Of a stretch of DNA of 64,000 nt, positions 784 through 44,680 are shown one piece after another (position 1 is the stretch's first letter; each line of letters starts with the position of its first letter). Source of the stretch: Clostridiales bacterium (GTDB taxonomy: Bacteria; Bacillota; Clostridia; Christensenellales; Aristaeellaceae); NCBI GenBank assembly GCA_017569285.1, contig CP069419.1, positions 1,364,001 through 1,428,000 of the forward strand, read 5' to 3'. Below the pieces are notes generated by a model, which worked only from the letters and a program-made list of their open reading frames with translations, did no database searches and was not told the DNA's origin. A program made the translations under genes and the position numbers.

Positions 784-1815
784 GTGAATTCAGTCATCGG
801 TTATGGAATCACCATGGCGGCAGGCCTGCTCCTGTCCGCCGTTCTTTACGTTCTCCGGGCGCGCCGGAAAGGGCTTCCGCTGTCCCGGATCCTGGCGGGG
901 ATCCCGGCCGGAATCCTCCTGGCGTATCTCTGCGCCAAACTGGTTTTCCTGGCCTTTTTCCATGTATCGGTGGAGGACCGGGGGCTCGGGATGCTGGTAC
1001 GGCTGGTTCCCGGGGAATTCTCCTTTGTCAGCGGATGCGCCGGCTTCTGCCTCGGAATCGCCCTGCCCTTCATCCGGAACCGGAGCCGGATTTCCGAAGC
1101 GCTGGATGCCTGGGCTGTTCCCGGCTGCCTGATGGCCGCTTTCGCCCGGTTCGGGGAAATCTTCCTGGACCAGTCCGGCCTGGCGGAGCTGTACGATATG
1201 GGCCTTCCCGACATCGAAGAAGGGTCCCTGCTGGCCCGATTCCCCTTTGCGGTCGGGGATGACTTCGGCATGTGGTATTTCGCCGTCAGCACGCTGACCG
1301 CGATCCTTTTCCTGGTCATCGCGCTGTTTGCCCGGCTGCGGGAAAACCGCGTGCGCGGGATTCCGGAGGATGCCGGGATGACCTTTGCCTTTGCCGCGTA
1401 CCTGATGGGCTGCGTCCGGTTCTTCCTGGAACTGCCCCGGATTGAAAGCCTGATCTTCTATTTTGTCCATGTGGAGCAGGTGCTGGCCGCCCTCGTCATG
1501 CTCTTCCTGACCGTCCGGATCTGCCGCCGGCGGAAAGCGCAGACCGGAAGGTTCCCCCGCTGGCCGCTGGTTTCCTTCTCCCTCTGCATCGTCGTCAACG
1601 GCCTCACCCAGTTCCTGCGGGACAAGCCTTCCAAATTCGAGCCCCTGATGCCGGAAGGCGTATACTGGTGGATCTGTGACCGCCTGTCGCCTTTCTGCTA
1701 CTCCGTCTATCTGCTGACCACGCTGGTGCTGGTCGTCGGATACCTGGTACTGGACGGCCGGCTTTGTGCCGGATACCGGAAAAATAACCTGTCAGGCAGG
1801 GAGGAAACCGTATGA
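784..1815 (+). CDS. Lgt-like multi-pass membrane protein (divergent prolipoprotein diacylglyceryl transferase fold)
   Basis: A GTG start is chosen because GGGAGGA lies about 6 bases upstream. The 343-residue protein has about seven hydrophobic segments. Its order matches Lgt: two N-terminal helices, the FSFVSGCAGF segment where Lgt has its H-G-G loop, RFGEIFLDQSG where Lgt has R-x-G-N-F-x-N-G-E, and RFFLELPR where Lgt has RFxIExxR. The conserved His of the loop and the Asn residues of the signature are absent, and about 70 residues with further helices are added at the C-terminus. It may therefore be a paralogue with another role rather than the housekeeping Lgt. Its stop overlaps the start of the next gene, a lipoprotein, by ATGA. 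Fold relation moderately sure; activity unknown. Confidence 0.55.
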   Translation: MNSVIGYGITMAAGLLLSAVLYVLRARRKGLPLSRILAGIPAGILLAYLCAKLVFLAFFHVSVEDRGLGMLVRLVPGEFSFVSGCAGFCLGIALPFIRNRSRISEALDAWAVPGCLMAAFARFGEIFLDQSGLAELYDMGLPDIEEGSLLARFPFAVGDDFGMWYFAVSTLTAILFLVIALFARLRENRVRGIPEDAGMTFAFAAYLMGCVRFFLELPRIESLIFYFVHVEQVLAALVMLFLTVRICRRRKAQTGRFPRWPLVSFSLCIVVNGLTQFLRDKPSKFEPLMPEGVYWWICDRLSPFCYSVYLLTTLVLVVGYLVLDGRLCAGYRKNNLSGREETV

Positions 1816-2732
1816 AAATCCGTAAAGCCATTCTCCTTCTTCTGATCCTTGTGCTGGCTTCCGGCTGCCTTGGCACGTCCGGAACGGCTGAATCCGTACC
1901 GGATCCGGAACGGGAACTGCTGCGCCTGCACCAGATCAATATCGGCAGTGCCGACGCCTACCTGCTGACCGTCGGAGACCTGGTCATCCTCGTGGACTGC
2001 GGCACCAACATCACGGTGCCGATTTCCGACAATGCGGGCAATCCCCCGCTGTTCGGCTATCTCGAGGCGTCAGGAATCGACCATGTGGATGTTCATTTTG
2101 TCACCCATTGGCACAATGACCACTGCTATAATGTGGACCGGCTGTCCGCACTGTACGGGACAGAGGACACCATTGTCTACGGTCCGTCCGCGGAGATCCT
2201 GAAAGCCCTCAGCCCCCTTCCTTTTGGTACCTACCGGCAGCTGAAGGACGGGGACCATCTGACGGTCGGCCCGCTGGATATCCTGTGTGTCAGCCCGCCT
2301 TTCAAAGAGAACCTGTCCGGGCAGAGCAACTCCCAGTCCCTGAATTTTATCGTCACCTATTACGATATCCGGATCATGTTCACCGGGGACTTCATGGACT
2401 GGTCGCTCCTCCGCCGCTGGGGAGACACCCTGGCGGATGTCGATATCCTGTCCTTCCCGCATCACGGAATCAACAACCCGATTGCCGTAACGGAACAGGT
2501 ATATATGCTCGTCAATCCCCATCTGATCCTGGTGCCGGGCGGGGAACGCGGAATCGTCCGCAATTTTGCGCTGAACAAAGCTTACGCGCAGACCGATCCG
2601 GTGATTTACTGCACCAAGGACGGGAATATCCTCGTCAGCACCGACGGAACCGGCATCTGGACTGCCACGCAGGTGGAACCCGGAACCTTCCCGCTCGGGG
2701 AACCGCTTCCGCCCCGGAAAAACGTCCGGTAA
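1812..2732 (+). CDS. Lipoprotein with ComEC/Rec2-like metallo-beta-lactamase domain
   Basis: A 306-residue protein with a lipoprotein signal peptide: basic start, hydrophobic core and the lipobox LASGC, cysteine at residue 19. The mature part is a metallo-beta-lactamase fold of the ComEC C-terminal kind. Metal ligands are visible as THWHNDH (residues 96-102), then FTGDF and FPHHG further on. In this family the domain acts as a nuclease or phosphodiesterase; here it lacks the ComEC pore and would be anchored outside the membrane, so a role in extracellular nucleic-acid or phosphodiester breakdown is an inference. The ATGA overlap with the Lgt-like gene implies translational coupling, and a strong palindromic terminator follows at 2747. 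Confidence 0.75.
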   Translation: MKIRKAILLLLILVLASGCLGTSGTAESVPDPERELLRLHQINIGSADAYLLTVGDLVILVDCGTNITVPISDNAGNPPLFGYLEASGIDHVDVHFVTHWHNDHCYNVDRLSALYGTEDTIVYGPSAEILKALSPLPFGTYRQLKDGDHLTVGPLDILCVSPPFKENLSGQSNSQSLNFIVTYYDIRIMFTGDFMDWSLLRRWGDTLADVDILSFPHHGINNPIAVTEQVYMLVNPHLILVPGGERGIVRNFALNKAYAQTDPVIYCTKDGNILVSTDGTGIWTATQVEPGTFPLGEPLPPRKNVR

Positions 2733-2746
2733 TCCCTTTGCCGTCA

Positions 2747-2769
2747 ACGGCCGCATGCGGCCGTTTTTT
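2747..2769 (+). terminator. Rho-independent terminator after the lipoprotein gene
   Basis: Perfect palindrome ACGGCCGCATGCGGCCGT (2747-2764) followed by a T run to 2769. It closes the first operon. Confidence 0.85.
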
Positions 2770-2794
2770 CTTTTGCTTTCATACGGTTCCCCCG

Positions 2795-2824
2795 TTGCGG
2801 ACTGGACGGCAGATGTTGTAAAAT
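2795..2824 (+). promoter_or_regulatory. Sigma-A-type promoter for the LRR surface protein
   Basis: TTGCGG (2795-2800) and TAAAAT (2819-2824) are 18 bases apart, downstream of the terminator and about 57 bases before the ATG at 2881. The -10 is good and the -35 only fair. Confidence 0.5.
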
Positions 2825-2880
2825 ATGAAAAGATGCAAACAGACCGGATTTTTTCCATTTGTGGGAAAAAGGAGGATAAT

Positions 2881-5754
2881 ATGAGGAAATGGATTGCATG
2901 CCTGCTGGTAATCATGCTGGCGGCAGCCGCATTCGGTACAGTCCTGGCGGACCCGGAGAAGCCCGAATGGGAGTACAGTGCGAAAGACGCGAAAATCACA
3001 AAATACAACGGTCCCGGCGGGGATGTGGTGGTCCCGGCGGAAATCGACGGAAACCCGGTCTTTTTTATCGATGGCAGCACATTTCCTTCCAGCCGGGAGG
3101 ATATCACTTCCATCACGTTCTCGAACGGGATTGAAGGCTTCTACAATGTGCTGAATACCACATACTCCCTGGAACAGATTGTCCTGCCCGACACCCTGGA
3201 AGTAATCGGCAACGGCGCACTGGGATACTGCCCGAAGCTGAAGGAAATCACTTTCCCGGCCTCCCTGCGGTTTATCAATGCCCAGCTGCTGTTCTCCATG
3301 GACAGCATGGAAACGGTCACCTTCCTGGGCGAATGCCCGGTCATCAGTGATGCGAACTCCGTGCTGTCCGGTATACCGTCCGGAGCGGTAATCCGGGTGC
3401 CGGATGACCAGGTGGATGCGTACCGTGCTGCGCTGACGGCCGTCAGCCCCGAACAGATCCAGCCGTCCGGCCGGGCCGCCGAACCGTATCATTCCCCCGA
3501 TGTGGACTTTGCCTTCGATCCGGTTTCCGGCACGATTACCGGCTGCAATACCATGCGGGGCTGGATTGAGGTTCCGGCGGAAATGGACGGAGTACCCGTC
3601 CGGGCACTGGGAACGTCCAGTTTTTCCGGCTGTACAAACCTCCATGCAATCGTTCTTCCGGACAGTCTGGAGGAAATCGGGGAATACGCCTTCGGCTGGC
3701 TGAATCATCTGACCTGGACAGAGATCCCCGCTGCGGTCAGAATACTCGGCCCGAAGGCATTCCAGTACTATAAGGGATATTATCTGGACCTGCCGGAAGG
3801 ACTGACTGAAATTCCTGCCTCATGTTTCACCGCGTCCCGGCTGCAGTCCATCACGCTCCCCTCTTCGGTCCGTACTGTCGGAGAAAGAGCTTTTTATAAC
3901 GCCTCTCTCCGGGAGGCATACCTCCCCGCCGGTCTCGAAAGCATCGGAGACGAGGCTTTTGCAGGAACCTCCCTGGAATACCTGTATTTCGACGGAGTCT
4001 CCCTGCCAAAGCTCGGGGAAAATGTCTTTCCGGAAACGCAACTGGCCGATGTGGACCTGAACTGGCGCGCATCGAAACAGGCCATGCTGGACGCCCAGGC
4101 ATACTTCGATTCCCTGGGATTCTCCGCCCGCGTCTGGCGTGCCCAGAACCCGGAAGTGAATTACCATGAAAGCCAGCTCGGCGAATACCATGACGGCCTG
4201 TTCGCCGGCTATTCCGGTACCATGGCAGCCATCCGGCCGTACGACAGCTACGACAGCGTCGAAACCACCGGCGTAGCCGACGGTGCCCTGAAGGGGAACC
4301 AGGTCGTCACGTACTTCGCGGTCTGCTATAACGACCAGGTGACTTATATCGGGAAGGAAGCCTTTGCGGACAGCATCCTGGAAAAGGCCGACCTGTTCGA
4401 CTCCGTCACCGTCATCGGCGCGGAAGCATTCCGCAATTCCCGGCTGAAGGAGATCACCATCCCGGAAAGCGTCACGGAAATCGGGAGCCGCGCGTTTGCG
4501 GACTGCCCCGCGCTGGAAACCGTCACCGTGCTGTGCGATCCGGCGGTGATTCCGGCGGACGCGTTTGACGGCAGCGGCAGTATCCGGCGCGTCCGGACCG
4601 CGGATGATGACGGATCGGACAGCATTGCGCTCTGCAGCCGCCTGGGTCTGCAGATTGCGTCCCTGACGCCGACCCCCGCGCCCACCGCGACCCCGGAACC
4701 CACTCCGGAGCCCACTCCGGAGCCCACGCCGGAACCCACTCCGGAACCCACGCCGGAACCCACCCCGGCGCCGGCGGCTCCGTCGGAGGCTGCCTGGAAC
4801 CGGTACGGCGGCGACTGGTATGTGCTGGAGATGGTCAGTGACGGCGAGGTCATGCGGCCTTCGGACTTCGGCGCCGTTATGGTCCTGTCCCTGAACCGGG
4901 ACGGTACGGCCGCCATGACCGGTACCGGCAGTGATTCATTCGGGACCTGGACCGCGGATGATGCGGGCGTCTCCGTCATCATTGACGGCAGCCCCGTGCC
5001 CGGCACCGAAGCGGATGGCATTCTGACGATGGCGATGGGCGGGATGTCCATGACCCTGAACCGGGAGGCGCCCGCGGCGCCGTTCACCCCCGCTGAAGCG
5101 GTCCAGGCCGCGGATGTGTCCGCGTTTGCGGGCACCTGGAAGGCGGCCTGGCTGTGCGGAGACGGAATGGTGATGGCGGCGGATTCCGCGCAGGCCGTGG
5201 ATTCCTGGGGAATGTTCTTCGGCTCTGCGGACCAGACTGTGACTGTATCCGGCACACACGCGGTTTACTTCGGCCATGATGAGGACTTTGCGTTTGCGAA
5301 CGGCCGGCTGGAAAACCTGGCCGGACCGGTCGAAGGTCTGGAGGATACCGGTATCTTCGATAAAATCATTACCCTGCGGGCGGACGGCATGCTGTGCCTG
5401 CAGGTCATGGGCTTTGAGATCTACATGGTGCCGGACGGCAGCGCGCCGGCCGCCCCGGCTTCGGTTCCCGCCGAAGGCGGGATCGCGATGGACGTCCGGT
5501 ATACCGCTGTACAGTATACGGTTGCCGGCGTGTCCCGGGATGCATCCATGCTGGGAGCAGAATATGCGGTGGTTTTCCACAGTAATGCCACAGTGGATTT
5601 CACCATGGCCGGATTTACCGTTTCGCTTCCATGGAGCCAGGACGGAACGGACTGCGTCATTGACTTCTCCGGAAATGCCATACGCTGTAAACCAAACGGC
5701 GAAGGCCTGGAAATGGATTATCTCGGAACCATGCTGCTGCAGATGAATCCGTAA
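2881..5754 (+). CDS. Secreted BspA-like leucine-rich-repeat surface protein with PEPT spacer
   Basis: The start at 2881 is preferred over in-frame upstream codons because AAGGAGG lies 7 bases before it and a signal peptide follows (MRKWIACLLVIMLAAAAFG, cleavage after LAD or VLA). The 957-residue protein has two blocks of BspA/TpLRR-type repeats with the I(T)LP.SLx.IGxxAFxxC pattern, residues about 50-330 and 470-580. Next comes a Pro-Glu-Pro-Thr spacer near residues 603-632, then about 320 residues made of beta-rich units with WYVLEMVSDGEV- and GTWKAAWLCGDG-like openings that look like lipocalin-type repeats (inference). No LPXTG or SLH anchor is visible. Such proteins usually bind host or particle surfaces; the ligand here is unknown. 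Confidence 0.8.
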   Translation: MRKWIACLLVIMLAAAAFGTVLADPEKPEWEYSAKDAKITKYNGPGGDVVVPAEIDGNPVFFIDGSTFPSSREDITSITFSNGIEGFYNVLNTTYSLEQIVLPDTLEVIGNGALGYCPKLKEITFPASLRFINAQLLFSMDSMETVTFLGECPVISDANSVLSGIPSGAVIRVPDDQVDAYRAALTAVSPEQIQPSGRAAEPYHSPDVDFAFDPVSGTITGCNTMRGWIEVPAEMDGVPVRALGTSSFSGCTNLHAIVLPDSLEEIGEYAFGWLNHLTWTEIPAAVRILGPKAFQYYKGYYLDLPEGLTEIPASCFTASRLQSITLPSSVRTVGERAFYNASLREAYLPAGLESIGDEAFAGTSLEYLYFDGVSLPKLGENVFPETQLADVDLNWRASKQAMLDAQAYFDSLGFSARVWRAQNPEVNYHESQLGEYHDGLFAGYSGTMAAIRPYDSYDSVETTGVADGALKGNQVVTYFAVCYNDQVTYIGKEAFADSILEKADLFDSVTVIGAEAFRNSRLKEITIPESVTEIGSRAFADCPALETVTVLCDPAVIPADAFDGSGSIRRVRTADDDGSDSIALCSRLGLQIASLTPTPAPTATPEPTPEPTPEPTPEPTPEPTPEPTPAPAAPSEAAWNRYGGDWYVLEMVSDGEVMRPSDFGAVMVLSLNRDGTAAMTGTGSDSFGTWTADDAGVSVIIDGSPVPGTEADGILTMAMGGMSMTLNREAPAAPFTPAEAVQAADVSAFAGTWKAAWLCGDGMVMAADSAQAVDSWGMFFGSADQTVTVSGTHAVYFGHDEDFAFANGRLENLAGPVEGLEDTGIFDKIITLRADGMLCLQVMGFEIYMVPDGSAPAAPASVPAEGGIAMDVRYTAVQYTVAGVSRDASMLGAEYAVVFHSNATVDFTMAGFTVSLPWSQDGTDCVIDFSGNAIRCKPNGEGLEMDYLGTMLLQMNP
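4692..4767 (+). repeat. 12-bp tandem repeat encoding PEPT units
   Basis: About six copies of a CCGGAACCCACT-like unit, in frame, encode a Pro-Glu-Pro-Thr spacer between the LRR part and the C-terminal beta-rich part of the surface protein. Copy number may vary between strains. Confidence 0.85.
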
Positions 5755-33305: not shown

Positions 33306-35678
33306 TTACTTGTAGTTCAGGGTGCCGCCCTGTTCAGCAACAAACGCGTCCCAGGCAGCATCGTCATAGTTGTAGGTCATGTACTTGACGCCGCCGCGGC
33401 TCAGCGGGAACACTTCATCCTCGAGGTAGTATTCGATCTTCATGCCCTTCAGCTTGGCGGAAGCATCGCCCATCAGCGGGATGAAGTCATAGTTCTGCAG
33501 GATGATGTTTTCGAGCTCGCCCAGGACCAGGATCCGGGTTTCCGCATTCGCGGTCACATCCAGTTCCACGTCTTCGCCCGCAGCGTTCTTGGCCGTGATC
33601 ACATTGTTGGTGATGCTCAGGTACCAGGTCCAGACATCCGTTGTGTACGCTTCGCCGTCGATCGTCACCGTCATCTGGGTTTCGGCGGGTTTCCAGGCGG
33701 GGTCATACTGATAGTTGGAGGAAACATAGGCTTCGATCAGGCCGAAGGGATCGAAGGTGCTGCCGGTCCAGCCGACGCCGAAGAGCATATCCACCTGGTT
33801 GTTGCGCAGCGCATCGGCGAAGCCGTTGCCTAGGGTGGAGTCACGGTCAAACTTCAGCTTGCCTTCCAGCTTGGTGCCCTTGACTGCTTCGGTGTAATTG
33901 TTGACGATGAAGTCATAGCCGCTGTTGTAGAAAGCGGAAGTCGCGTTGGGCGTACCGACCATGATCAGGACGGTATCCGCATCGGTCATCAGGCCGGCTT
34001 CAATCGCCTGATCATAGGCCTTGTCGAAATACTCGCGGGCCATCTCCAGGTTGTAGCCGGTGATGGAATCGATCGCGTCGTCCACGGTCGCATACAGCTT
34101 GCCTTCGCCGATTTCGTCCGCCAGACCCCAGAAGTCAACGACAACCTGCTTGGCGGTATCCGTGGTGCGGTAGAACAGGCCTTCTTCAGGATCCGCAACA
34201 ATCTGGCTGCCGTAGAGGGCGAACGCCGGGAAGCTTGTCGGATCAGCCGCCAGCACGAACTCGGAACGGTTCATGGCCAGGGACATGGCGATACGGAAAT
34301 CCTTGATCGTCAGGATCGTCTTGTTGATGTTCGCTCCGGCAGCTTCCTGCGCGGTCTTCAGCGCTGCCAGATCGGGGTTGAACGCCATCGCGAATACGGA
34401 GTCGCCCTCATCATAATAGGTGTAGTCGGAGGACGCGTATTCCTTGATGTAGTCCTTGTTCAGGCCGTTGACGTCCAGCTTGCCGTTCAGGAACATTTCC
34501 ATCCGGGTGGCGGGTTCCTGTACATAGGAAACATTGATCACGTCGGTCTGGTACAGCCCTTCAAATTCCGGCAGGCTGTATCCGAACCAGTTCTCATTGC
34601 GGACCAGGTTGTATTCCTTGTCGCTCTGGAAGGAACCCAGCTTGTAGGGACCCCAGGACATCGTGGTTTCCTGCGAAGTGCCGTAGCTGTTGGTGTACAC
34701 GCCGTCTTTTTCGCTCGCGCACTCATTGTACTTCGCTTCGTTGACCAGCCAGTTCGGGATACCGTAGTAGAGGTAGAAGCCTTCCAGGGGCTTGGCCAGG
34801 ATCAGCACCAGTTCCTTGTCGCTGAGGGCCTTGACGCCGACCTTTTCAAACGGGAATCCGTCTTCATAGGCCTGGAAGTTCAGGAAAAGCTCATCCTCGG
34901 TCCACTCAACCAGCTGTTCGGGGCTGGCCCATGTCGCATAGGCCGCGCCTTCACCGGTGGTGTAGAATTCATACAGTTCGCCGACGGTCAGGGGCGTTTC
35001 GACTACTTCGTTATCTGCCGCGCCGGTCCAGGCTTTCGCTTCGAAATCGTATGTGTCGCCGAAAGAATTGGCCCAGTTGATCCAGCCCTTTTCATCCTTG
35101 AAGGCATCGATCAGTTCTTCGGTGGTCGCGAATCCCTTGCTCGCCTTCACCTTGCCGTAGGAAGTGGGCTCGGTCAGGCCCTGCTTCAGGTAGGCTTCGG
35201 CATTCGCCACAACCAGGTTGCCGGAATACAGGCCGTCCGCGCGGTGGTTCTGCGCTTTCGGATCCAGCAGGTACTGGGCGGAGGTCACGAAATCCGGAGC
35301 CGTGATGGGGGTGCCGTCTTCCCAGGCAAGGCCGTCCCGCAGGATGAATTTCCACGCGCGGGCGGTATCGCCTTCCGCGATTCCCCATTCCTCACCGACA
35401 TAGTCGGCGGAAACGTCGGTCGGGAAATCTTCGACAGCCAGGGGCTTCAGCACATAGCCGTCTTTGTCTTCGTTGAAATCAAATTCATAGAAAGCGGAGT
35501 ACAGCCAGTCGGTAATGTTGCTGTCAGTGGCCGTCTGCTGCTGGAAAGGGCTCCAGTTCGTCGGGAATTCCGCCGCAGCCGTACGGTACGTATAGGTCGG
35601 CGCGGTTTCTTCCGCAAACGCGGCGGTCAGGCTGGCCATCATGCAGAGAGCCAGTACCAGGGATAAAAGTTTCCTCAT
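33306..35678 (-). CDS. oppA: Oligopeptide-type ABC solute-binding protein (system 1)
   Basis: The start at 35678 has AGGAGGGG about 8 bases upstream. The 790-residue protein has a signal peptide (MRKLLSLVLALCMMASLTAAFA, likely cleaved after AFA) and no canonical lipobox. The fold is SBP family 5 in normal order: N-terminal EFPTNWSPFQQQTATDSN, WKFILRDGLAWEDGTPITAPDFV, later SYVQEPATRMEMFLNGKLDV and DFRIAMSLAMNRSEF, and the C-terminal LFGVGWTGSTFDP region. It is longer than typical OppA (540-600). It presumably feeds peptides to OppBC1, although other ligands of this family cannot be excluded. The first gene of opp1. Confidence 0.92.
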   Translation of the reverse strand: MRKLLSLVLALCMMASLTAAFAEETAPTYTYRTAAAEFPTNWSPFQQQTATDSNITDWLYSAFYEFDFNEDKDGYVLKPLAVEDFPTDVSADYVGEEWGIAEGDTARAWKFILRDGLAWEDGTPITAPDFVTSAQYLLDPKAQNHRADGLYSGNLVVANAEAYLKQGLTEPTSYGKVKASKGFATTEELIDAFKDEKGWINWANSFGDTYDFEAKAWTGAADNEVVETPLTVGELYEFYTTGEGAAYATWASPEQLVEWTEDELFLNFQAYEDGFPFEKVGVKALSDKELVLILAKPLEGFYLYYGIPNWLVNEAKYNECASEKDGVYTNSYGTSQETTMSWGPYKLGSFQSDKEYNLVRNENWFGYSLPEFEGLYQTDVINVSYVQEPATRMEMFLNGKLDVNGLNKDYIKEYASSDYTYYDEGDSVFAMAFNPDLAALKTAQEAAGANINKTILTIKDFRIAMSLAMNRSEFVLAADPTSFPAFALYGSQIVADPEEGLFYRTTDTAKQVVVDFWGLADEIGEGKLYATVDDAIDSITGYNLEMAREYFDKAYDQAIEAGLMTDADTVLIMVGTPNATSAFYNSGYDFIVNNYTEAVKGTKLEGKLKFDRDSTLGNGFADALRNNQVDMLFGVGWTGSTFDPFGLIEAYVSSNYQYDPAWKPAETQMTVTIDGEAYTTDVWTWYLSITNNVITAKNAAGEDVELDVTANAETRILVLGELENIILQNYDFIPLMGDASAKLKGMKIEYYLEDEVFPLSRGGVKYMTYNYDDAAWDAFVAEQGGTLNYK

Positions 35679-35704
35679 TAAGTGTCCCCTCCTGTTGTTG
35701 TTTA

Positions 35705-35729
35705 TTTTTCTGGGCATCCGCCCGAAAAA
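35705..35729 (-). other. 5'-leader hairpin of oppA1
   Basis: TTTTTC-GGGC / GCCC-GAAAAA with a 4-base loop and one bulged base, 27 bases before the ATG. A hairpin of the same size lies in the same place before oppA2. Confidence 0.55.
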
Positions 35730-35806
35730 ACGAAATCAGAACAAGCCGGATTCGATTGCCCGGATGGTAGCTTTTGCTGATCTGTCCATAAAAGAAGTAC
35801 GGTTTG

Positions 35807-35872: not shown

Positions 35873-37009
35873 TCACCTGGAAGGCACCGCTTCCTGCAGG
35901 CTGTCCGCTCCGGTCCACACGCACTGGATATCATCCGGTGTCTCAACCGTTCCGGGATCCTCCGCGCAGTTCAGCCGGATCATCTCCCAGGCCAGGTCAA
36001 CCGCCCGGGCCGGTCCGGCCATCACCGCCTGATCCACCCGGTCCCGGAATCCGCCGGTCCGCGCGTCAAACCAGTAATGGCGCTTCAGCCCGTTCACCGT
36101 ATAGGCGCCGTATCCGTCGCTCCGCAGTTCCCCGGCCGCAAACCGGATGGAGGCCGCTGGTCCGGCGGCGCTCAGCGTGGCCGCCGCTTCCCCGTCCTTC
36201 ATCACGGAAACAATCAGCGTTTCCTTTGCGCGGGCCGTCAGTGCCAGGCCGCTCTTTGAAAACAGCACAAAATCCGGATAGCCGGCCGCTTTCATATCTT
36301 CCGCAACCAGGTCCATCAGGTAGGCGTCCCGCAGCAGGTTCAGGTCCAGGATGGGGGCGGAAATTTCCAGTTCCTCCGCCAGGCGCCGGTATTCTTCCGG
36401 TATCGTCAGGCAGGCCGTCGTTCCGCCTTCCCCTTCGCTGAGCGTGAGCCGGATTCCGTTCTCCGGCCGGACCGCCCCGGCGATCCGGGCAATCCGCTCC
36501 GCTTCCTCCGGCGAATTGGCCGGGTCCGCGTTCTGCGGTTCATCCAGGTAAAGCAGCCGCTCCCACTCATCATACAGTGCGCCGGCAAAGGCGGAGTATC
36601 CCTCATCCGCGCCGGTCTTTTCCAGCGCGTCGCGCAGTACGCCGGCCAGCCGGTCCGGGATCCGGATTTCCTCCCCCGGATGCCGGTTCAGGGCCGCAAT
36701 ATTCTCCGTTTCCTCATACACAGCGGTGCTGTCCAGCTGGATAAAATTCCGGTACAGGCTGTCGGAATAGATCCGCTGGACGGTGTTCGACAGCGTCCGG
36801 ATATCCGCGGCGTTCCCTTCCGCCCAGTAAATCATGGAGATACCGGTCCGGTACAGCACGTCCGCGTGCGTATTCTCATAAACAATCGTCTGGTATCCGC
36901 TCTCCCGGTGTCCCAGCTTGATGGCCCAGGTCGTAAAGGACCCGACTGCGATCAGGACCGCCAGGATGAACAGAACCAGCCGGATACGGTTTTTCCTGTC
37001 ACGAAGCAT
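35873..37009 (-). CDS. Membrane-anchored, degenerate ApbE-like protein
   Basis: The 378-residue product starts with one transmembrane segment (residues 10-30) and an extracytoplasmic domain. Several stretches resemble ApbE/FAD:protein FMN transferases: ENIAALNRHPGEEIRIPDRLAGVLRDALE, YSAFAGALYDEWERLL, and LDLNLLRDAYLMDLVAEDMKAAGYPDFVLFSKSGLALTA. The last sits where ApbE has the DLGGIAKGYxxD motif and a GG loop. The catalytic-looking residues are not kept, so flavin transfer is doubtful. GAGGG lies 7 bases before the ATG and the oppF2 stop is 3 bases upstream: it is the last gene of the opp2 operon. The family link is moderate; the function is unknown. Confidence 0.5.
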   Translation of the reverse strand: MLRDRKNRIRLVLFILAVLIAVGSFTTWAIKLGHRESGYQTIVYENTHADVLYRTGISMIYWAEGNAADIRTLSNTVQRIYSDSLYRNFIQLDSTAVYEETENIAALNRHPGEEIRIPDRLAGVLRDALEKTGADEGYSAFAGALYDEWERLLYLDEPQNADPANSPEEAERIARIAGAVRPENGIRLTLSEGEGGTTACLTIPEEYRRLAEELEISAPILDLNLLRDAYLMDLVAEDMKAAGYPDFVLFSKSGLALTARAKETLIVSVMKDGEAAATLSAAGPAASIRFAAGELRSDGYGAYTVNGLKRHYWFDARTGGFRDRVDQAVMAGPARAVDLAWEMIRLNCAEDPGTVETPDDIQCVWTGADSLQEAVPSR

Positions 37010-37012
37010 GCA

Positions 37013-37957
37013 TTATCCCTCGCCGAAGCGCTTTTTCTTCGCTGCGTCGATTTCCTCCTGGGTACCGTACAGCCAGTGGCCGTTGCCCAGGTCCTGCAGG
37101 GACGGATGATCGTTCTCACCGTATTCCTTCGGCTCGTAGACGAAAAGCTTCTTCTTCTTTTCCAGGATCGGGTCCGGGATCGGAATCGCGCTCATCAGGG
37201 AGCGGGTATACGGATGCAGCGGATACTGGAACAGCTCCTCCGTCTCGGCCACTTCCATAATCCGGCCCTTGTAGATGACCACAATGCGGTCGGAGATAAA
37301 CCGGACGATCGACAGGTCGTGCGCAATGAACAGATAGGTCAGCCCGCGCTCCTGCTGGAATTTCTTCAGCAGGTTCAGCACCTGGGCCCGGATGGAAACG
37401 TCCAGTGCGGAGATCGGCTCGTCCGCCACAATCAGCTCCGGTTCCATGACGATGGACCGGGCCAGGCCGACGCGCTGCCGCTGTCCGCCGGAAAACTCAT
37501 GAGGATACCGCGTCAGGTGTTCCGGCAGGAGGCCGACGTCGTTGATGGCCTTCTCCACCTTTTCCATCCGCTCCCGGTCGCTGTTGAACAGGTGGAAATT
37601 GTACAGGCCCTCCGAAATGATATATTCAATGGTCGCCCGCTCATTCAGGGACGCTGCGGGATCCTGGAATACCATCTGGATCTTCCGGATGACTTCCCGG
37701 TCCTTGGAACGGGGCAGCTTGCCGGAGATCTTCTCTCCCTTGAAGTAGATTGCACCGTTTGTGCATGGATTGATCCGCACGATGGCCCGGCCGATGGTGG
37801 TCTTTCCGCTGCCGGACTCGCCGACCAGGGACAGGGTCTCTCCCTTGTAGATATCAAAGCTGACATCAGACACGGCCTTGAAGCTGTTCTTCCCCTGCTT
37901 GAAGACTACGTCCAGGTTCTGGACGGAAAGCAGGACTTCCTTGTTCTGATTGTCCAT
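37013..37957 (-). CDS. oppF: OppF-type ABC ATPase, normal length (system 2)
   Basis: The 314-residue product has all ATPase motifs at regular spacing: Walker [11 protein letters not shown]-loop VFQDPAASL, signature FSGGQRQR, Walker B LIVADEP, switch IAHDLS, then [12 protein letters not shown] and the oligopeptide-importer tail. It is the only one of the four Opp ATPases here without an insertion and is therefore the natural internal reference. It starts 3 bases after the oppD2 stop. Confidence 0.95.
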
Positions 37958-37960
37958 GCC

Positions 37961-39772
37961 TTACTCTCCTTCCTCTTCGAAATCGCCGTAGATCTTCACC
38001 ATTTTTTCATGCAGGTTCTGGATATTCTTCGGCGCTTCCGTCTTCGGGGCCCGGGGATCCAGCAGCCAGGTCTTCGCGAAGTGGGTTTCGCTGACCTGGA
38101 ACATCGGCGGCTCTTCCTTCAGGTCGATGGCCATCGCGTAGTTGTTCCGCGGGGCAAAGGCATCACCGACAATCTTGTTGTACAGGGAAGGCGGCGTACC
38201 GGGGATGGAGAACAGCTCCGTGCCCCGCTCCGTCAGCTGCGGCAGGGAGGACAGCAGGGCCCAGGTGTAGGGATGCTTCGGATCGTAGAAGATATCCTCC
38301 ACGGTGCCCAGCTCCACAATCTGCCCGGCATACAGCACCGCCACGCGTTCCGCCACATTGGCCACAACACCCAGGTCGTGGGTGATATAAACTGTCGTAA
38401 ATCCGAGATCCTGCTGCAGGTCCTTGATCAGGCGGATGATCTGGGCCTGGATCGTCACGTCCAGCGCGGTCGTCGGTTCATCGCAGATCAGGATCTTCGG
38501 CTGGCAGCTCAGCGCGATCGCGATAACAATCCGCTGGCGCATACCGCCGGAATACTGGAATGGATAATCGTCAAAGCGTTTCTCCGGCTCCGGGATTCCC
38601 ACCTTCGCCATGATATCCAGCGTCCGCTGCTTTGCTTCCGCCTTGGAGCACTTCTGGTGCTTCAGGATCACCTGCATGATCTGCTTGCCGATCGGGATAA
38701 CCGGGTTCAGGCTGGTCATGGGATCCTGGAACACCGTCGCAATCCGGCGGCCGCGGATCTTCTGCCAGTCATCGGTATACTTCACGTTGGCGCAGTCGAT
38801 CACCGCATAGCCTTCCAGCTGGTTCTCCGACTCGTTCACTTCAGTGAATTCCACATACAGCACGCAGGTCTGGAACAGCTTCCGGCGCACGTCGCTGTCC
38901 AGCAGGTTTTCCCCCTGGATCATCGCCTTGCGGAGAACCCGGTTCAGTTTCATCGTGTATTTGATCCGGTCCTTGAAGGGATACCGGCCGGTGGAAAGCA
39001 GCACGTCATATGCCAGCTTCCGGTTGCGGGCGATCGTCGCGTCTGACAGCCCTTCCGGATTGCTTTCCTTATCCTTCGTTTTGATCTTTTGCTTGCGCAG
39101 CTCCTTCAGCCGGGCAATCTCCGTCCGGTCTGCCGCCTGGCGGGCCGCATCCGCCTTATAGGCTTCCGTGCGTTCCTTGATCAGGGATTCCTTTTCCGCG
39201 TTCAGCGCATTTTCCCGCGCCGTCAGGTCCCGGATCTTCTTTTCCAGTTCCTGGATTTCCTTCTGGTCATTCGCGCTGTGCTTGTCCAGGGTCAGCAGGT
39301 AGTTGTTGCTTTCCACGATGTCGTCGTGAATATCCTTGGCCCGGGTACGGAATGATTCTTCCTCTTCCTCGGTCAGAGTTTTCACATGGGCAATGTCCGC
39401 CTTTTTCTGCCGGAGCGCCCGGTATTCCCCGGCGCCGCGTTCCAGCACTGAATATTTGTTGTACTTGTTGGTCAGCCGTTCCAGCAGGCGCAGGTTGGCC
39501 GGCGTCAGCTTGACGTTGGTATGGGAAAGGTCGTCATCCGAGAAGATGACGCTGCCTTCGCTGATGAAACCGTTGGATTCCAGCATGCCGGCAAATGTCT
39601 TTGTCAGGACGGATTTGCCCGATCCGCTCTCACCGACGATCGCGATGGATTCATGTTCATAGATATCCAGGCTGACGTTCCGGATTGCGGTCAGGATCCG
39701 GCCGCGTACATTGAATTTGACGCTGACGTTTTTCAGGGAAAGGAGGACTTTCCTGTTTTCATTCTCGCTCAT
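37961..39772 (-). CDS. oppD: OppD-type ABC ATPase with a ~250-residue insertion before the Q-loop (system 2)
   Basis: The 603-residue product has Walker A GESGSGKS at 47-54, Q-loop VFQDP at 347-351, signature YSGGMRQR at 407, Walker B ILICDEP near 426 and the OppD C-terminal part. About 250 extra residues (82-333) are placed between the first beta-sheet and the Q-loop. They contain a long charged coiled-coil-like stretch (NDQKEIQELEKKIRDLTARE and following) and a second half (TGRYPFKDRIKYTMKLNRVL) ending in a short beta-like piece. This is the other side of the Q-loop from the OppD1 insertion. All catalytic motifs remain. A 12-base gap separates it from oppC2. Confidence 0.92.
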   Translation of the reverse strand: MSENENRKVLLSLKNVSVKFNVRGRILTAIRNVSLDIYEHESIAIVGESGSGKSVLTKTFAGMLESNGFISEGSVIFSDDDLSHTNVKLTPANLRLLERLTNKYNKYSVLERGAGEYRALRQKKADIAHVKTLTEEEEESFRTRAKDIHDDIVESNNYLLTLDKHSANDQKEIQELEKKIRDLTARENALNAEKESLIKERTEAYKADAARQAADRTEIARLKELRKQKIKTKDKESNPEGLSDATIARNRKLAYDVLLSTGRYPFKDRIKYTMKLNRVLRKAMIQGENLLDSDVRRKLFQTCVLYVEFTEVNESENQLEGYAVIDCANVKYTDDWQKIRGRRIATVFQDPMTSLNPVIPIGKQIMQVILKHQKCSKAEAKQRTLDIMAKVGIPEPEKRFDDYPFQYSGGMRQRIVIAIALSCQPKILICDEPTTALDVTIQAQIIRLIKDLQQDLGFTTVYITHDLGVVANVAERVAVLYAGQIVELGTVEDIFYDPKHPYTWALLSSLPQLTERGTELFSIPGTPPSLYNKIVGDAFAPRNNYAMAIDLKEEPPMFQVSETHFAKTWLLDPRAPKTEAPKNIQNLHEKMVKIYGDFEEEGE

Positions 39773-39784
39773 GATCCGCCCTCC

Positions 39785-40747
39785 TTACATATGCGTCCTG
39801 GGATCCGAGGCATCCGCCAGGTTCTGGCCCAGAACGTACAGAATTACGGTGATGGCTGAAGCGATGGCAACCGGCGGCCAGAATTCCCACGGATAGACCA
39901 GGAAGGCGCTCTGCGCCTGCTGGATCATCCGGCCGAGGGAGGGAATTTCAGCGCTCAGTCCGACGCCGATAAAGCTCAGGAACACTTCCGAGGAGATATA
40001 GCTCGGCAGTTCCGTCGCCAGCACCGTCACGATCACGGAAGTCAGGAAAGGCAGGATATTCTTGCTGATCATCCGGGGAATCGGCGTGCCCAGGCAGCGG
40101 GACGCCAGCGAATACTCCCGGTCGCGGATGATCATCACCTGGGTCCGGAAGAAGTACGCGATTCCCAGCCAGCCGGTGATCGTCATGGCAAACACGAAGC
40201 TCCAGAAGCCCGAGCCGATGACGTATACCAGCACAGCAATCATCAGGATGTACGGCACGTTGGCGATGATGTTGTAGATCACCAGCATCACCTGGTCAAA
40301 CCGCTTGCTGTATCCCCATACGGCGCCGAGGATAATGCCGATCGTCATGTTGATCGCCGCGCAGATGATGGCCAGCAGCAGGCTGGTCTGGGCCGATGCC
40401 CAGATTCCGTAGAAGATGCTGTTGCCCATGGGGCCCGTACCCAGGATCCACTTGAAGGAGAATCCGTCGTATTTGGCCATTGCCGCGGCGGGAGACAGGT
40501 TGAATGAAGTGGCATCCCGGAGATTTTCATACGCGTCGTAGGGGGCAATCGCCGGAATCACAAACGCGCACAGGAAAATCAGGATGAATAGGATAATCAT
40601 CAGCAGGTTGGTTTTCTTGCGGAAAAATACGCGGAATACGGATGCCCAGTAGGAATACCGGGGTGCCGTGATTTTTTCGGACTGGATCGTGTCCTTGTCG
40701 ATAAACCGGAACAATCCGTCCTGGTTCCGGGTCGTCTGCTCAGACAT
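39785..40747 (-). CDS. oppC: OppC-type permease, normal length (system 2)
   Basis: The 320-residue protein has a cytoplasmic N-terminus, TM1 at about residues 47-68, a short loop to ILGTGPMGNSIFYGIWASAQTS (the position of the family's GTDxxGRD motif, changed here to GTGPMGNS), and the EAA loop LASRCLGTPIPRMISKNILP. It has no large insertion, unlike OppC1. The start overlaps the oppB2 stop by one base. It pairs with the enlarged OppB2. Confidence 0.95.
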   Translation of the reverse strand: MSEQTTRNQDGLFRFIDKDTIQSEKITAPRYSYWASVFRVFFRKKTNLLMIILFILIFLCAFVIPAIAPYDAYENLRDATSFNLSPAAAMAKYDGFSFKWILGTGPMGNSIFYGIWASAQTSLLLAIICAAINMTIGIILGAVWGYSKRFDQVMLVIYNIIANVPYILMIAVLVYVIGSGFWSFVFAMTITGWLGIAYFFRTQVMIIRDREYSLASRCLGTPIPRMISKNILPFLTSVIVTVLATELPSYISSEVFLSFIGVGLSAEIPSLGRMIQQAQSAFLVYPWEFWPPVAIASAITVILYVLGQNLADASDPRTHM

Positions 40748-42330
40748 CAGCGGCCACCTCCTTTGCTGGATGAGAGGGAGATCCGCGGGTCATACTTGGC
40801 CAGCAGCAGGTCGCCCAGGATCAGGGATATGATCGACAGCGTGGTATAGAACACGGTACAGGCCACGATGATGCCGTTGTCATACCCGTTGATGGCGTTG
40901 GTCAGCAGGCCGCCCACGCCGGGTACGGAATAGACGCGCTCGGTAATGATCGCGCCGATCAGGCAGCCCAGGATGTTGCCGGGGATGCCGTGGACCAGGT
41001 AGATCATCGCGTTGGGGCTGATGTGCTTCCGGTAAATTTCCTTCTCGCTCATGCCTTCCGCCCGGGCGAATTTGACGTAGTCGCTGTTCATCTGGTCAAT
41101 CATATATCGCCGCATCCACTTCATCAGGTTGCCGATGGACGGCAGCGCCAGCGAAAGGGTCGGCAGGATGTAGGCCAGGATCTTGGCCTCCGCGTTGGCA
41201 AACTTGTATGGCAGCCCGAACAGGGTGGTACCGATGGCGGCAAACAGGAAAATACGGGCCAGGCCGGGCACCGCGATGGAGAAGATGATGTAGCCGTTGC
41301 CGATCTTGTCCCCCAGTCCGTCCTTGTGCCGGGCCATGGCAATGCCCAGCGGCAGGCCGAACAGGTAGGCGATTGCGGTTGCGATCAGGCCGATCACAAA
41401 GGAGTTCTCCAGCATGGACAGTCCGTCAATCCGGTAGCTGTAGGTCGTGTACTGGTCCGGGAATTGCTTCATCTCCGTTTTGGTTCTGGGAGAACTGTTG
41501 TAAGTCAGCGTATGGAAATCAATCGCTGAACTGATATATTCATCCGTGCCCAGCTTGGCCGGATACTGGGTCTGCACCTTCACCTGGTCCCCGGTCGGCC
41601 GGTTGATGACGTCGGTGATTTCCTGTCCCCTGAACTTGGTAAAGGAAGTGCCCAGGTTCAGGTGGATCCAGTTCTGGTGGATAAACGGGAAACGCCCGTC
41701 AAAGTACAGCTGGTATTTGTGCGTGGTGCCGCTGCCCACCACCGCAAACAGACCGCTGTACGGGTCATGCTCGGCCCGGACATAGCGCTCCGTCAGCGCG
41801 GGATCCTGCACGTCGTTCACGGTTTCCACCGTAATCAGGTGCGTCAGGTAATTCCACAGGCGGGTAAATACGCTCCGTTCCACCACGGCGACCAGGTATC
41901 CGTCGCCGCCCTTCTTGGCTTTTCCGGAAGGGGAACGCTGGGGTTCGAGATACCGGATTTTGTATCCTTCTTTCTCGAACATCTCAATAAACTCCTGGAC
42001 GTCAGAATTGTCCAGGTAGGTATTTTCATTCTGAATGGCTTCCTTGGCTGCCTTGAACTCATCGCTCTTGGTATACTCCGCGCCGTACTGGCCCTCATAT
42101 TTGGACCGCAGGAAGCTGGTGAAATCCGAATACTCCAGGTATCCGAATTTCTGATACTGGGCATACTCATAGATGGTCCGGTCGTTCAGGCTCTTCTTGT
42201 TCCAGACGTCATCCATCTGGAATATGGCGCCCCTTGGAATCAGGTTATAGACCAGGAGCATAACGGTCGCGATTACGACCAGCAGCGAAAACAGGGAGAA
42301 CAGAATCCGCCGCAGCATGTATCTTCTCAT
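40747..42330 (-). CDS. oppB: OppB-type permease with a ~200-residue extracellular insertion (system 2)
   Basis: The start at 42330 (MRRYMLRRILFSLFSLL) fits OppB; a GTG at 42342 is an alternative and neither has a strong ribosome site. At 527 residues it is about 200 longer than usual. After TM1 (8-30) come about 280 extracytoplasmic residues before TM2 (about 309), containing an alpha-rich part (KYEGQYGAEYTKSDEFKAAK) and the family's LGTSF..G.xxxDVI element near 226-242. The EAA loop is FARAEGMSEKEIYRKHISPNAM. Here OppB, not OppC, carries the large outer domain. Confidence 0.92.
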   Translation of the reverse strand: MRRYMLRRILFSLFSLLVVIATVMLLVYNLIPRGAIFQMDDVWNKKSLNDRTIYEYAQYQKFGYLEYSDFTSFLRSKYEGQYGAEYTKSDEFKAAKEAIQNENTYLDNSDVQEFIEMFEKEGYKIRYLEPQRSPSGKAKKGGDGYLVAVVERSVFTRLWNYLTHLITVETVNDVQDPALTERYVRAEHDPYSGLFAVVGSGTTHKYQLYFDGRFPFIHQNWIHLNLGTSFTKFRGQEITDVINRPTGDQVKVQTQYPAKLGTDEYISSAIDFHTLTYNSSPRTKTEMKQFPDQYTTYSYRIDGLSMLENSFVIGLIATAIAYLFGLPLGIAMARHKDGLGDKIGNGYIIFSIAVPGLARIFLFAAIGTTLFGLPYKFANAEAKILAYILPTLSLALPSIGNLMKWMRRYMIDQMNSDYVKFARAEGMSEKEIYRKHISPNAMIYLVHGIPGNILGCLIGAIITERVYSVPGVGGLLTNAINGYDNGIIVACTVFYTTLSIISLILGDLLLAKYDPRISLSSSKGGGR

Positions 42331-42380
42331 GAATACACCCACTTACCCAAAAAATAAAATGAGGAAATAATACGCAAATG

Positions 42381-42443
42381 ATCCCGCGCCGGCGGGATTA
42401 TGCCTGGAATCAATAGGGGAAGCGGCGAAGACGCCGCTTCCCC
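42381..42443 (-). other. Two strong hairpins between oppA2 and oppB2
   Basis: In transcript order: a perfect 12-bp stem (GGGGAAGCGGCG with its complement, 42416-42443) and a 7-bp stem ATCCCGC/GCGGGAT (42381-42398). No T run follows. This mirrors the hairpins after oppA1 and after the maltodextrin binding-protein gene, and fits partial termination or mRNA stabilisation. Confidence 0.65.
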
Positions 42444-42471
42444 CCGTTTTACAGAATACCCTGTATGGGGA

Positions 42472-44526
42472 TTAATAGTCCACACCGATAACCTTCAGCA
42501 TGTAGCCATTCACGCCGAACGTATCCAGATAGGTGGAAGGATCGCCGTAGTCGGGGCCCCAGCCGGATCCGTAGAAGAAGTCGAAGTTGCCGGCTTCACC
42601 GGACGCCGCGCGGTATCCGCAGGCGTAGAAGTCCGCGGAAGTGGTGGTCTCAACCAGGTTCACAACCACGTTCTCGGCACCGAGGGTTTCCTCGATGGTC
42701 TGCTTGGAGACCTGCGCCTGAGCGGTGTTGCCTTCGGAAGCGGAATAGTACACGATGTCGATGGTGATCGGCCAGGTCACGCTGTCGCCCAGTTCTTCCT
42801 TGGCCTTGGCCAGGTAGTCCTTGGCGAGGTCCGCGTTGTACCAGCCGTCGATGGCGTCCGCAACCTTGATTTCGCCGCCCATCTGATCCAGATAGTACTG
42901 AACCATCTCGCCGTAGAAGGTGCCGGCCGCAAATTCATGGCCGTCCGCATCCGTCGTGGCGTTCTCCAGGGAGACGAACTCGGGGTGGGTATACATGTTC
43001 CGGATGTTGGCCAGCTTCAGGTCTTCACCGCGGCTGGTGGCATTCACGGTCGCGCGGTCCCACGCATGGGCCAGGGCTTTCCGGAAGCTCTTGTTCATCA
43101 GGGCATTGTGCGTGTCAATCTTCTGCTGCTCGGTCTTGGGAGAAGCAGCCGCGCCGCTCTCCAGGGCGAAGGTGCCGCGGTTGACGTTCATGCCGCCGAA
43201 GTAGGTGGTGGAGGTGGTGTCGGAAACGTAGGCATACTTGTCGAAGTTGCCGTCGTCCTTGGCCATCTTCAGGGTGCCGCTCGCCTCGGTCAGGCCGCTG
43301 CCGGCGTACACACCGCTCACAACGTCATCGTAGAACGCCTTCATGTTCTCACCGTTGTCGTAGATCCAGGTGATGCTGTTGATCGTCACCTCGTCCGCAC
43401 GGTAGTAGTTCGGGTTCTTCTCAACAACGATTTCGGAATCGGGATTCAGCTTCTTGAGGAGGAACGGGCCGCTGTAGACCTGGGAGGCCACGTCGGTGTT
43501 CTTGCCGAAGGTGTAGGCTTCGGTATCGGCGAAAGCAGCCTGATATTCCTCAGCGCCATAGACGCCGCCGTGGCTCAGGTACCAGTCTTCGCAGATCGGC
43601 AGGAAGCAGCTGTAGGTCAGCATGGTCATGAAGTAGGGGATGTCTCCCTCCAGCGTGATCACCAGGGTCTGGTCATCAACAGCTTCATAACCGACTTCGT
43701 CGAAGGAACCGCCCGCCAGGTATTCGGCAGCGCCCTTCACAACGCCTTCAACCAGCCACTCGAGGCCGGCCTTGGCGTCCAGCATGTGATGGAACCCGGC
43801 AACGAAGTCGCCCGCGGTCACGTCGGCGTATTCTTCGCCTTCGGAGGTGAACCACTTGGCGCCTTCCCGGATGTGGAATGTGTAAACGGAACCGTCATCG
43901 CTGACTTCCCAGGACTCCGCCATGGCGGGGCACAGCTGGTTCAGGTTGTTGTACTGCACCAGGCCGTCCACGCAGTTCACGGTGATTTCGGTATCGCTCT
44001 GGGAGGAGGTGTTCAGCCAGTCCAGGGTAACCGGAGCGGTGGCGAAGGTCAGCTTGTAATCGCTCTGGAGGGTATGGCCCTTGCCGGTCAGGTAAGCGGC
44101 AGGATCATAGGTTCCTTCGCCGGCAACGGCTTTGCTCCACTCGGCAAGCAGGTCAGCCCGCTCGTCGGGGGTCAGGAACTCATCGGAGATGACCAGGCCG
44201 AACAGGCGGTCATCGTCATTGCCCCACTGGACGTAGGGAACGGTACGGGGAGCGATGCGGCTGATGGTGTAGGCACCACCCTGGGTGGTATTCGGAACCA
44301 TCACGGCGCTGTCGAGCAGCGCGGCTTCCGCCTGCGCATACAGGACGAACCGTTCATCGTTGGTCGGAGCGGCTTTGGCGGCCTTCATCAGCTCGTCATA
44401 GTCACCCAGCAGTTCGAGATAGATCTCTTCATCTTCGGCGCGTTCGTAAGCCACATCTTCTGCGGAAACGGAGGCGACACCCAGAATCATGCAGAGAGCC
44501 ATCAACAGGGCAATCAGTTTCTTCAT
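42472..44526 (-). CDS. oppA: AmiA/PrgZ-type peptide-binding protein in circularly permuted order (system 2)
   Basis: The start at 44526 has AAGGAGA about 9 bases upstream, then a signal peptide (MKKLIALLMALCMILGVASVSA) without a canonical lipobox. The 684-residue protein holds all of a peptide-binding SBP family 5 member, but the order is changed. Residues about 43-132 correspond to the family's C-terminal tail (YDELMKAAKAAPTNDERF, then AEAALLDSAVMVPNTTQGGA and LTPDERADLLAEWSK). From about 157 comes the normal N-terminal lobe (TLDWLNTSSQSDTEITVNCVDGL, PAMAESWEVSDDGSVYTFHI). The protein ends with GWGPDYGDPSTYLDTF and a short strand, exactly where the tail should follow. It presumably serves OppBCDF2. 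Confidence 0.88.
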   Translation of the reverse strand: MKKLIALLMALCMILGVASVSAEDVAYERAEDEEIYLELLGDYDELMKAAKAAPTNDERFVLYAQAEAALLDSAVMVPNTTQGGAYTISRIAPRTVPYVQWGNDDDRLFGLVISDEFLTPDERADLLAEWSKAVAGEGTYDPAAYLTGKGHTLQSDYKLTFATAPVTLDWLNTSSQSDTEITVNCVDGLVQYNNLNQLCPAMAESWEVSDDGSVYTFHIREGAKWFTSEGEEYADVTAGDFVAGFHHMLDAKAGLEWLVEGVVKGAAEYLAGGSFDEVGYEAVDDQTLVITLEGDIPYFMTMLTYSCFLPICEDWYLSHGGVYGAEEYQAAFADTEAYTFGKNTDVASQVYSGPFLLKKLNPDSEIVVEKNPNYYRADEVTINSITWIYDNGENMKAFYDDVVSGVYAGSGLTEASGTLKMAKDDGNFDKYAYVSDTTSTTYFGGMNVNRGTFALESGAAASPKTEQQKIDTHNALMNKSFRKALAHAWDRATVNATSRGEDLKLANIRNMYTHPEFVSLENATTDADGHEFAAGTFYGEMVQYYLDQMGGEIKVADAIDGWYNADLAKDYLAKAKEELGDSVTWPITIDIVYYSASEGNTAQAQVSKQTIEETLGAENVVVNLVETTTSADFYACGYRAASGEAGNFDFFYGSGWGPDYGDPSTYLDTFGVNGYMLKVIGVDY

Positions 44527-44550
44527 GGTAGATATCTCCTTTTTTTTATT

Positions 44551-44577
44551 TATTATCGGGATAGCCCCCGAATAATA
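44551..44577 (-). other. 5'-leader hairpin of oppA2
   Basis: TATTAT-CGGG / CCCG-ATAATA with a 6-base loop and one bulged base, 24 bases before the ATG, matching the size and place of the oppA1 leader hairpin. Confidence 0.5.
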
Positions 44578-44651
44578 CAAAGCAGGAAATACGGAATGCA
44601 AATACACATTTCACAATGGCAACATATACAACCTTTGTTTATGTGCGAGAT

Positions 44652-44680
44652 AGAATAACATATTTACAGGCAAAAAGCAA
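44652..44680 (-). promoter_or_regulatory. Promoter of the opp2 operon
   Basis: On the minus strand TTGCTT (complement of 44675-44680) and TATTCT (complement of 44652-44657) with a 17-base spacer. The leader to oppA2 is about 120 bases. Confidence 0.55.

Follow-up and report, generated by a model that had tools for sequence, protein, structure and literature searches.

Two kinds of described ABC-importer binding proteins are closest to the gene presented here. For the pneumococcal Ami/Ali proteins, the part of the published account available to us reports that W500 and D503 in the GWGPDY strand of AliB contact the N-terminus of the bound peptide, and it places domain III of AliD at residues 297–582, with the chain offset inferred by us (PMC11192437). 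The other is TpMglB-2 (Tp0684) from Treponema pallidum, which, according to the accessible portion of its description, is a naturally circularly permuted ABC binding protein designated ‘Type Ic / Cluster Bc’, has kept its ligand binding and has relatives among spirochaetes and Gram-positive bacteria of the gut (PMC4990184). In the full-text literature no natural circular permutation was found in the OppA/AmiA family, although subscription papers and preprints are mostly not covered there and the absence is unproven.

The gene lies in a window of 64,000 nucleotides, which is the whole stretch of DNA analysed (contig CP069419.1 of a Clostridiales bacterium, positions 1,364,001 to 1,428,000). It occupies an uninterrupted minus-strand ORF at 42472–44526 with an AGGAG ahead of the ATG, 684 codons (42475–44526) and a stop codon at 42472–42474. 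On computational evidence, without any experiment, we have very little doubt that it codes for a circularly permuted substrate-binding protein (SBP) of an Ami/Opp-type oligopeptide ABC importer, and that at least five further lineages of SBP family 5 (SBP5) are permuted likewise. The chain starts with a signal peptide at residues about 1–23 (44458–44526), recognised by eye, with a signal-peptidase-I-like site (SVSA/ED) and without a lipobox. It is followed by the moved C-terminal tail at residues about 29–135 (residues 36–135 at 44122–44421), which was delimited by alignment, a tail profile and the structural model and consists, in this order, of a helix, the AEAALLDSAVMVP helix-strand and a final helix 120–134, the equivalent of Ami helix α-19 according to its alignment with the final helix of AmiA and AliC and now internal. 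A new linker leading from the old C-terminus to the old N-terminus, residues 136–156 (44059–44121), is supported by the alignment of relatives, among which it is recognisable, and by the model, in which it is confident. The normal body, residues 157–682 (42481–44058), found by Pfam, phmmer and Foldseek, comprises domains I–II and most of domain III, and includes the GWGPDYGDPSTYLDTF motif at residues 655–670 (42517–42564, alignment of 67 sequences), directly behind which stands the new C-terminus GVNGYMLKVIGVDY (42475–42516). Antisense to the gene there is a long open frame (42400–44658, plus strand), probably a by-product of codon bias.

An earlier note on this DNA had read the protein as AmiA-type with its tail placed behind the signal peptide, and phmmer alignments to PDB sequences bear this out. 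Residues 157–670 align with AmiA (8a42) 16–497 (292 bits) and residues 40–135 with AmiA 524–623 (20.7 bits, i-E 0.001); residues 152–681 and 42–133 correspond to AliB 4–500 and 517–609 (tail 20.5 bits), and residues 157–682 and 29–133 to AliC (8qlh) 14–506 and 508–616 (tail 29.2 bits, i-E 2.7e-6), the latter protein being covered in inverted order with no gap at the cut. The tail matches are modest (20–29 bits), and AliD and PrgZ gave a single passing stretch each. A generic SBP5 profile matches the protein over 35–458 and 470–525, again inverted. A profile of the moved tail, for which 67 permuted relatives were used, finds its counterpart behind the body in 24 SBP5 ORFs of normal order, with E-values reaching 1.4e-13, and shows no tail match in 18 further SBP5 ORFs. 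Residues 43–132, which the note had equated with the SBP5 C-terminal tail, do align to it, so the reading as a truncated SBP carrying a foreign N-terminal domain was rejected. A frame-shifted normal tail downstream was rejected as well, since the gap of 129 bp between the stop codon and the OppB ORF leaves no room for one. Nor do other residues form a normal tail at the C-terminus, where the chain stops right behind GWGPDYGDPSTYLDTF and the short strand, just as had been described. The circular permutation is thus confirmed as an observed arrangement. Its description as a cut and rejoining of the ends, not a truncation, is supported by both blocks being present in inverted order and by the order being kept in 90 ORFs, though a tail coming from the same gene has not been shown for this lineage.

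The SBP_bac_5 family (PF00496, cluster C) is the sole Pfam match above its cut-off, at residues 200–672 with 157.3 bits against a cut-off of 32.4, and a scan of the front 148 aa gave no match above a cut-off; as Pfam sees the body only, such proteins pass for normal binding proteins whose front part has no explanation. With respect to SBP family 5, the protein has the profile match and lacks the usual order of signal peptide, body and tail, since the tail precedes the body; with respect to the Ami/Ali type, it has the tryptophan and aspartate of GWGPDY and helix α-19, and lacks a lipobox by pattern. These two residues of the GWGPDY strand, W656 and D659, align with AliB W500 and D503 and are invariant in all 67 permuted sequences, from which we infer that peptide binding has likely been retained, an inference drawn from the motif and the operon in the absence of binding data.

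The AlphaFold model, based on the 67 permuted sequences, has a mean pLDDT of 92.2 and a pTM of 0.88, the ten-residue blocks of tail and linker range from 83 to 98, and only residues 1–21 are poor (pLDDT below 50 except residue 5). Its best PDB match in Foldseek is AmiA 8a42 with an rmsd of 2.5 Å and TM values of 0.68/0.74 (0.74 by target) over 539 columns, which presumably represent the body, as the aligned range was not displayed. The two-lobed, three-domain fold fits, in the predicted model only, and the protein most likely folds into the ordinary two-lobed flytrap; the tail itself has not been superposed on AmiA.

Permuted SBP5 proteins of the subfamily of the window protein are hereafter called type A, and the others are assigned to types B, C and D. 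Used as a query in its own genome, the window protein finds only itself and one distant 19-bit match. Full-length permuted copies are present in 12 of 61 whole genomes, which comprise its own and others of its genus and order: its own, G015 (98% identity), five at 68–78% and five at 43–44%; in G030, also among the 61, the copy is divided between two contigs. G023 and G036, each listed with one contig, carry a full-length permuted copy. Across the class, full-length type A occurs in 5 of 391 genomes, the window genome included. The note had proposed looking for the same order in relatives, and the tail does precede the body in 78 of 80 loci from named genomes (the best 80 of 117), the other two being contig-edge fragments with the body only. 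These best 80 loci are labelled Clostridia (60), Spirochaetales (10), Erysipelotrichaceae (5) and other Bacillota (5). After removal of identical sequences, 90 distinct type-A ORFs remain, some of them cut by contig ends, and the order is kept among them down to about 40% identity. The permuted arrangement is common to dozens of gut bacteria. Both tail and body are under purifying selection (dN/dS 0.07–0.33 in six pairwise comparisons), with the tail dN clearly above that of the body in only one of the six (L039, 0.308 vs 0.190); the linker is looser, with dN up to 0.50 and above the body dN in three of the six. In a tail tree of weak support, two of the proteins from the ten Spirochaetales-labelled type-A loci are placed with clostridial proteins, perhaps through horizontal transfer or misbinning.

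The gene is followed on the same strand by genes coding for an OppB-like permease of 531 aa with a large insertion (40747–42342), an OppC-like permease (39785–40747) and an OppD-like ATPase of 603 aa with an inserted segment (37961–39772), all three assigned from the ORF list and profile matches, and, by profile match, an OppF-like ATPase (37016–37957). The same gene run is closed by a second, diverged SBP5 gene, an 809-aa open frame at 33309–35735 (minus strand) with normal order by profile, before which there is a 379-aa open frame (35876–37012, minus strand) without a Pfam match at E 0.01. A long plus-strand open frame at 36680–39046, antisense to OppD/OppF, is probably another by-product of codon bias. 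Where the downstream flank measures 4.5 kb or more, as in 58 type-A loci, the next genes are OppB-OppC-OppD in 56 loci, OppC-OppD in one and none of these in one. Twelve normal-order AmiA-like loci were examined for the OppB insertion: all six from the sister clade (L014–L017, L019 and L117) precede an OppB aligning through the insertion, four others (L118, L121, L122, L126) stand before an OppB without it, and for two (L119, L127) the short flank contains no match to OppB. As the sister loci precede an OppB with the same insertion, the permutation most likely took place within an ami-type operon, with the permease architecture kept.

To examine the recurrence of such permutations, a profile was made from 46 SBP5 ORFs of normal order and used to scan the ORFs in 201 loci. 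It recovered 212 SBP5 ORFs, duplicates between loci counted, of which 106 have an inverted domain order; two type-A contig-edge fragments (L080 and L107) are counted as normal in a further order assignment and in the rank correlations given below. In profile coordinates the cut lies at about 458/470 in type A, 466/470 in type B and 298/301 in type D; in type C the blocks overlap at 381/362–374 in L130, L136 and L141, and L183 is cut at 375/382. The type B proteins (L027, L029, L031, L172–L177 and L225) are OppA/DppE-like and come from the genus and order of the window; they are cut nearly at the site of the window gene, yet form a separate lineage. Full-length or nearly full-length copies were found in 6 of 61 relatives, plus G513. 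One of them, L027, covers DppE 24–444 and 452–506 (tail 25.9 bits), and its tail match to OppA is not significant (9.5 bits only). The type C protein L136 corresponds to OppA (8are) 17–364 and 367–507, and C1 is present in 3 of 291 genomes. For type D, L135 corresponds to 6npo 32–297 and 300–541. The D1 proteins (L135, 589–2298, and L202–L221) make up a conserved subfamily whose cut lies where domain III begins. Full-length copies are present in at least 20 of the 71 genomes of its family, six of which have neighbouring copies; the order was confirmed for 20 loci from as many genomes, and L202 is identical to L135. D2 occurs in two of two genomes, with the permuted order shown for L223. Three orders are met in genus g12 of the five-genome family f12: normal (L226), type B (L225) and type C (L183). 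The last of these (1378–3156, minus strand) is a permuted SBP5 cut elsewhere than the window gene, its residues 222–587 aligning with L179 34–396 (63% identity) and residues 35–215 with L179 409–590 (65%). As it also groups with the normal-order L178–L181, it represents a recent circular permutation known from a single genome.

A careful tree was built from 264 N-lobe columns not divided by any cut. Type A forms one clade of seven rows (support 100/98) and type B one clade of four (100/99), while types C and D each appear twice, giving six order changes in all. The approximately unbiased (AU) tests reject the unions A+B (p 6e-5), C1+L183 (p 1e-4) and D1+L169 (p 1e-5), as well as B+L183 (p 4e-4) once L178–L181 are included, which L183 joins at 100/100; without these four, lost by dereplication, the last union gives p 0.21. 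A single origin for all the permuted proteins was rejected (p 5e-54). The AU tests cover five unions only, and the groups were named after the first FastTree had been seen, which the test does not allow for. L002, L201 and L028 were left out as long branches, and a quick tree including them has seven changes instead of six; edge fragments of L216 and L219 (two) were omitted as well. The tree does not separate gain of an order from its loss, and the normal order is inferred to be ancestral from its wide spread, solved structures included. Judging from these sequences, there appear to be five further permuted SBP5 lineages, six in all, with about three cut sites and of independent origin. The type-A event is old and single for its subfamily.

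On the model of the window protein, type D is cut in the loop after strand 441–446, type C at the end of helix 565–582 and the loop before strand 587, and type A where the protein itself begins and ends, beyond the GWGPDY helix; the type B cut could not be mapped on it. The limits of domain III in OppA we take to be 271–486. By the AliD and OppA limits every cut lies within domain III (lobe 2); that of type D is at the border, just a few residues past it. The note had placed the new N-terminus in the domain that normally ends the protein; this needs correcting, as the new N-terminus is in domain III, in lobe 2, and the moved tail itself returns to domain I and to the helix on lobe 1. The recurrence of the sites is inferred to reflect the tolerance of domain III loops.

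Several readings of the origin and role of the permutation have to be weighed. The named relatives being mostly metagenome-assembled, and L183 known from one genome, a chimeric contig or a frameshift could have produced an apparent permutation, but for type A this is already refuted by the retention of the order in distinct, diverged ORFs, one-contig genomes among them, by a signal-peptide-like start in 89 of the 90 and by dN/dS values well under 1 for tail and body in every pair, so that an artefact is practically ruled out. What is commonly expected for a real permutation is gene duplication, fusion of neighbouring SBP5 copies, such as those seen in D1, and trimming. By this inferred route the former C- and N-termini, which both lie in domain I, would have been joined by the linker of about 20 residues and new ends opened in domain III, just behind the GWGPDY strand that binds the peptide N-terminus, and the permuted flytrap would hand peptides to the OppBC permease encoded downstream, uptake being inferred. 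No intermediate was seen among 99 tail-bearing ORFs, two of which had a second tail match, both with E above 40. The tail could also have come from a neighbouring SBP5 paralogue and been set in front while the protein's own tail was lost. The type-A tail profile does score up to 47 bits outside the sister clade of the body, vs 23–35 within it; the best normal matches of the tail are L124, L119 and L139 (34–37 bits) and the best complete normal matches of the body L014 and L015 (232–238 bits), and the correlation between tail and body score ranks is no more than moderate (rho 0.54 for L001, 0.49 for L114). These differing best matches and the rho of 0.54 leave a paralogue origin of the type-A tail open. 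Nevertheless, the tail tree does not reject type A together with the sister clade (AU p 0.265), and it is a member of this clade, L015, whose tail is on average the most identical to type A (0.34); for ten proteins belonging to the remaining permuted lineages the correlation of the ranks is 0.81–0.93, even if the very best matches differ in L135 and L220, and in L183 both parts are 63–65% identical to one normal protein. Such a chimera is unlikely, with duplication, fusion and trimming remaining the inferred route.

Whether the permutation is also an adaptation that takes the membrane anchor or free end off lobe 1, places it on lobe 2 and alters docking to the permease is doubtful. In its favour, domain III makes up about 42–46% of the protein, and six uniform, independent cuts would all fall there with a probability of 0.42–0.46 to the sixth power, i.e. 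below 0.01, an inference relying partly on the OppA limits given above. A lipobox pattern is present in many of the permuted proteins (56 of 90 in type A, 6 of 8 in B, 4 of 4 in C and 21 of 25 in D), the counts being rough, as this simple pattern misses some (e.g. a type-B signal ending in CAC) and gives some false matches. The TpMglB-2 authors, in the part of their paper at hand, suggest that tethering might explain the permutation of their protein (PMC4990184). On the other hand, the searches preferentially pick up proteins whose N-lobe is intact and would under-detect cuts in domains I and II, type D is barely within that domain, and tolerance of surface loops accounts for the sites equally well. 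The lipobox pattern is absent from the window protein and from each of the 13 type-A ORFs in its genus, despite LspA and Lgt being present in the window genome. The expectation of the note that the tethering end had been moved relative to the cleft thus fails for this protein, which has no lipid tether to move. PF01790 (prolipoprotein diacylglyceryl transferase) has six matches over the cut-off in the genome, one of them in the window (793–1512, plus strand). It is no more than a tentative suggestion that SBP5 is a permutation hot-spot, with at least six events at about three domain III sites and an end relocated to lobe 2 and selected through docking or release. Tolerance of the loops remains the inferred explanation of the sites.

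The significance of these proteins lies in a large and well-studied family having at least six cases with recurrent cuts, natural permutations being hard to catch in the act. L183 and L179 are still about 64% identical. With cases such as these it can be tested directly by which route a circular permutation arises and what selective value it has, and the findings bear on the anchoring and docking of SBPs.

An identity with Type Ic SBPs of the TpMglB-2 kind was rejected, as the Pfam and PDB matches are all to SBP5. The likeness to TpMglB-2, as far as its partly available description goes, is that of a natural permutation in an ABC-importer binding protein with a similar spread; TpMglB-2 differs in being an unrelated sugar-binding protein of type I/cluster B with N-lobe strands at its C-terminus, whereas SBP5 has at least six permuted lineages (PMC4990184). 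With the pneumococcal AmiA, AliB, AliC and AliD (8a42, 8qlj, 8qlh, 8qlc), described in the accessible part of PMC11192437, the window protein has the family in common, at a Foldseek identity of 31–37%. The two systems share the GWGPDY motif, helix α-19 and an operon encoding an AmiC-like permease that has extracellular domains, the large insertion described for AmiC being found likewise in the window OppB; unlike the pneumococcal proteins, the window protein has its tail first and its ends in domain III, and has no lipobox. A further comparison is offered by AmiA-type proteins with normal order from the genus of the window protein (L014–L017 and L019), which belong to the sister clade and occupy the same operon slot before an insertion-bearing OppB, but carry the tail at the C-terminus and are 35–36% identical to the window protein over the body.
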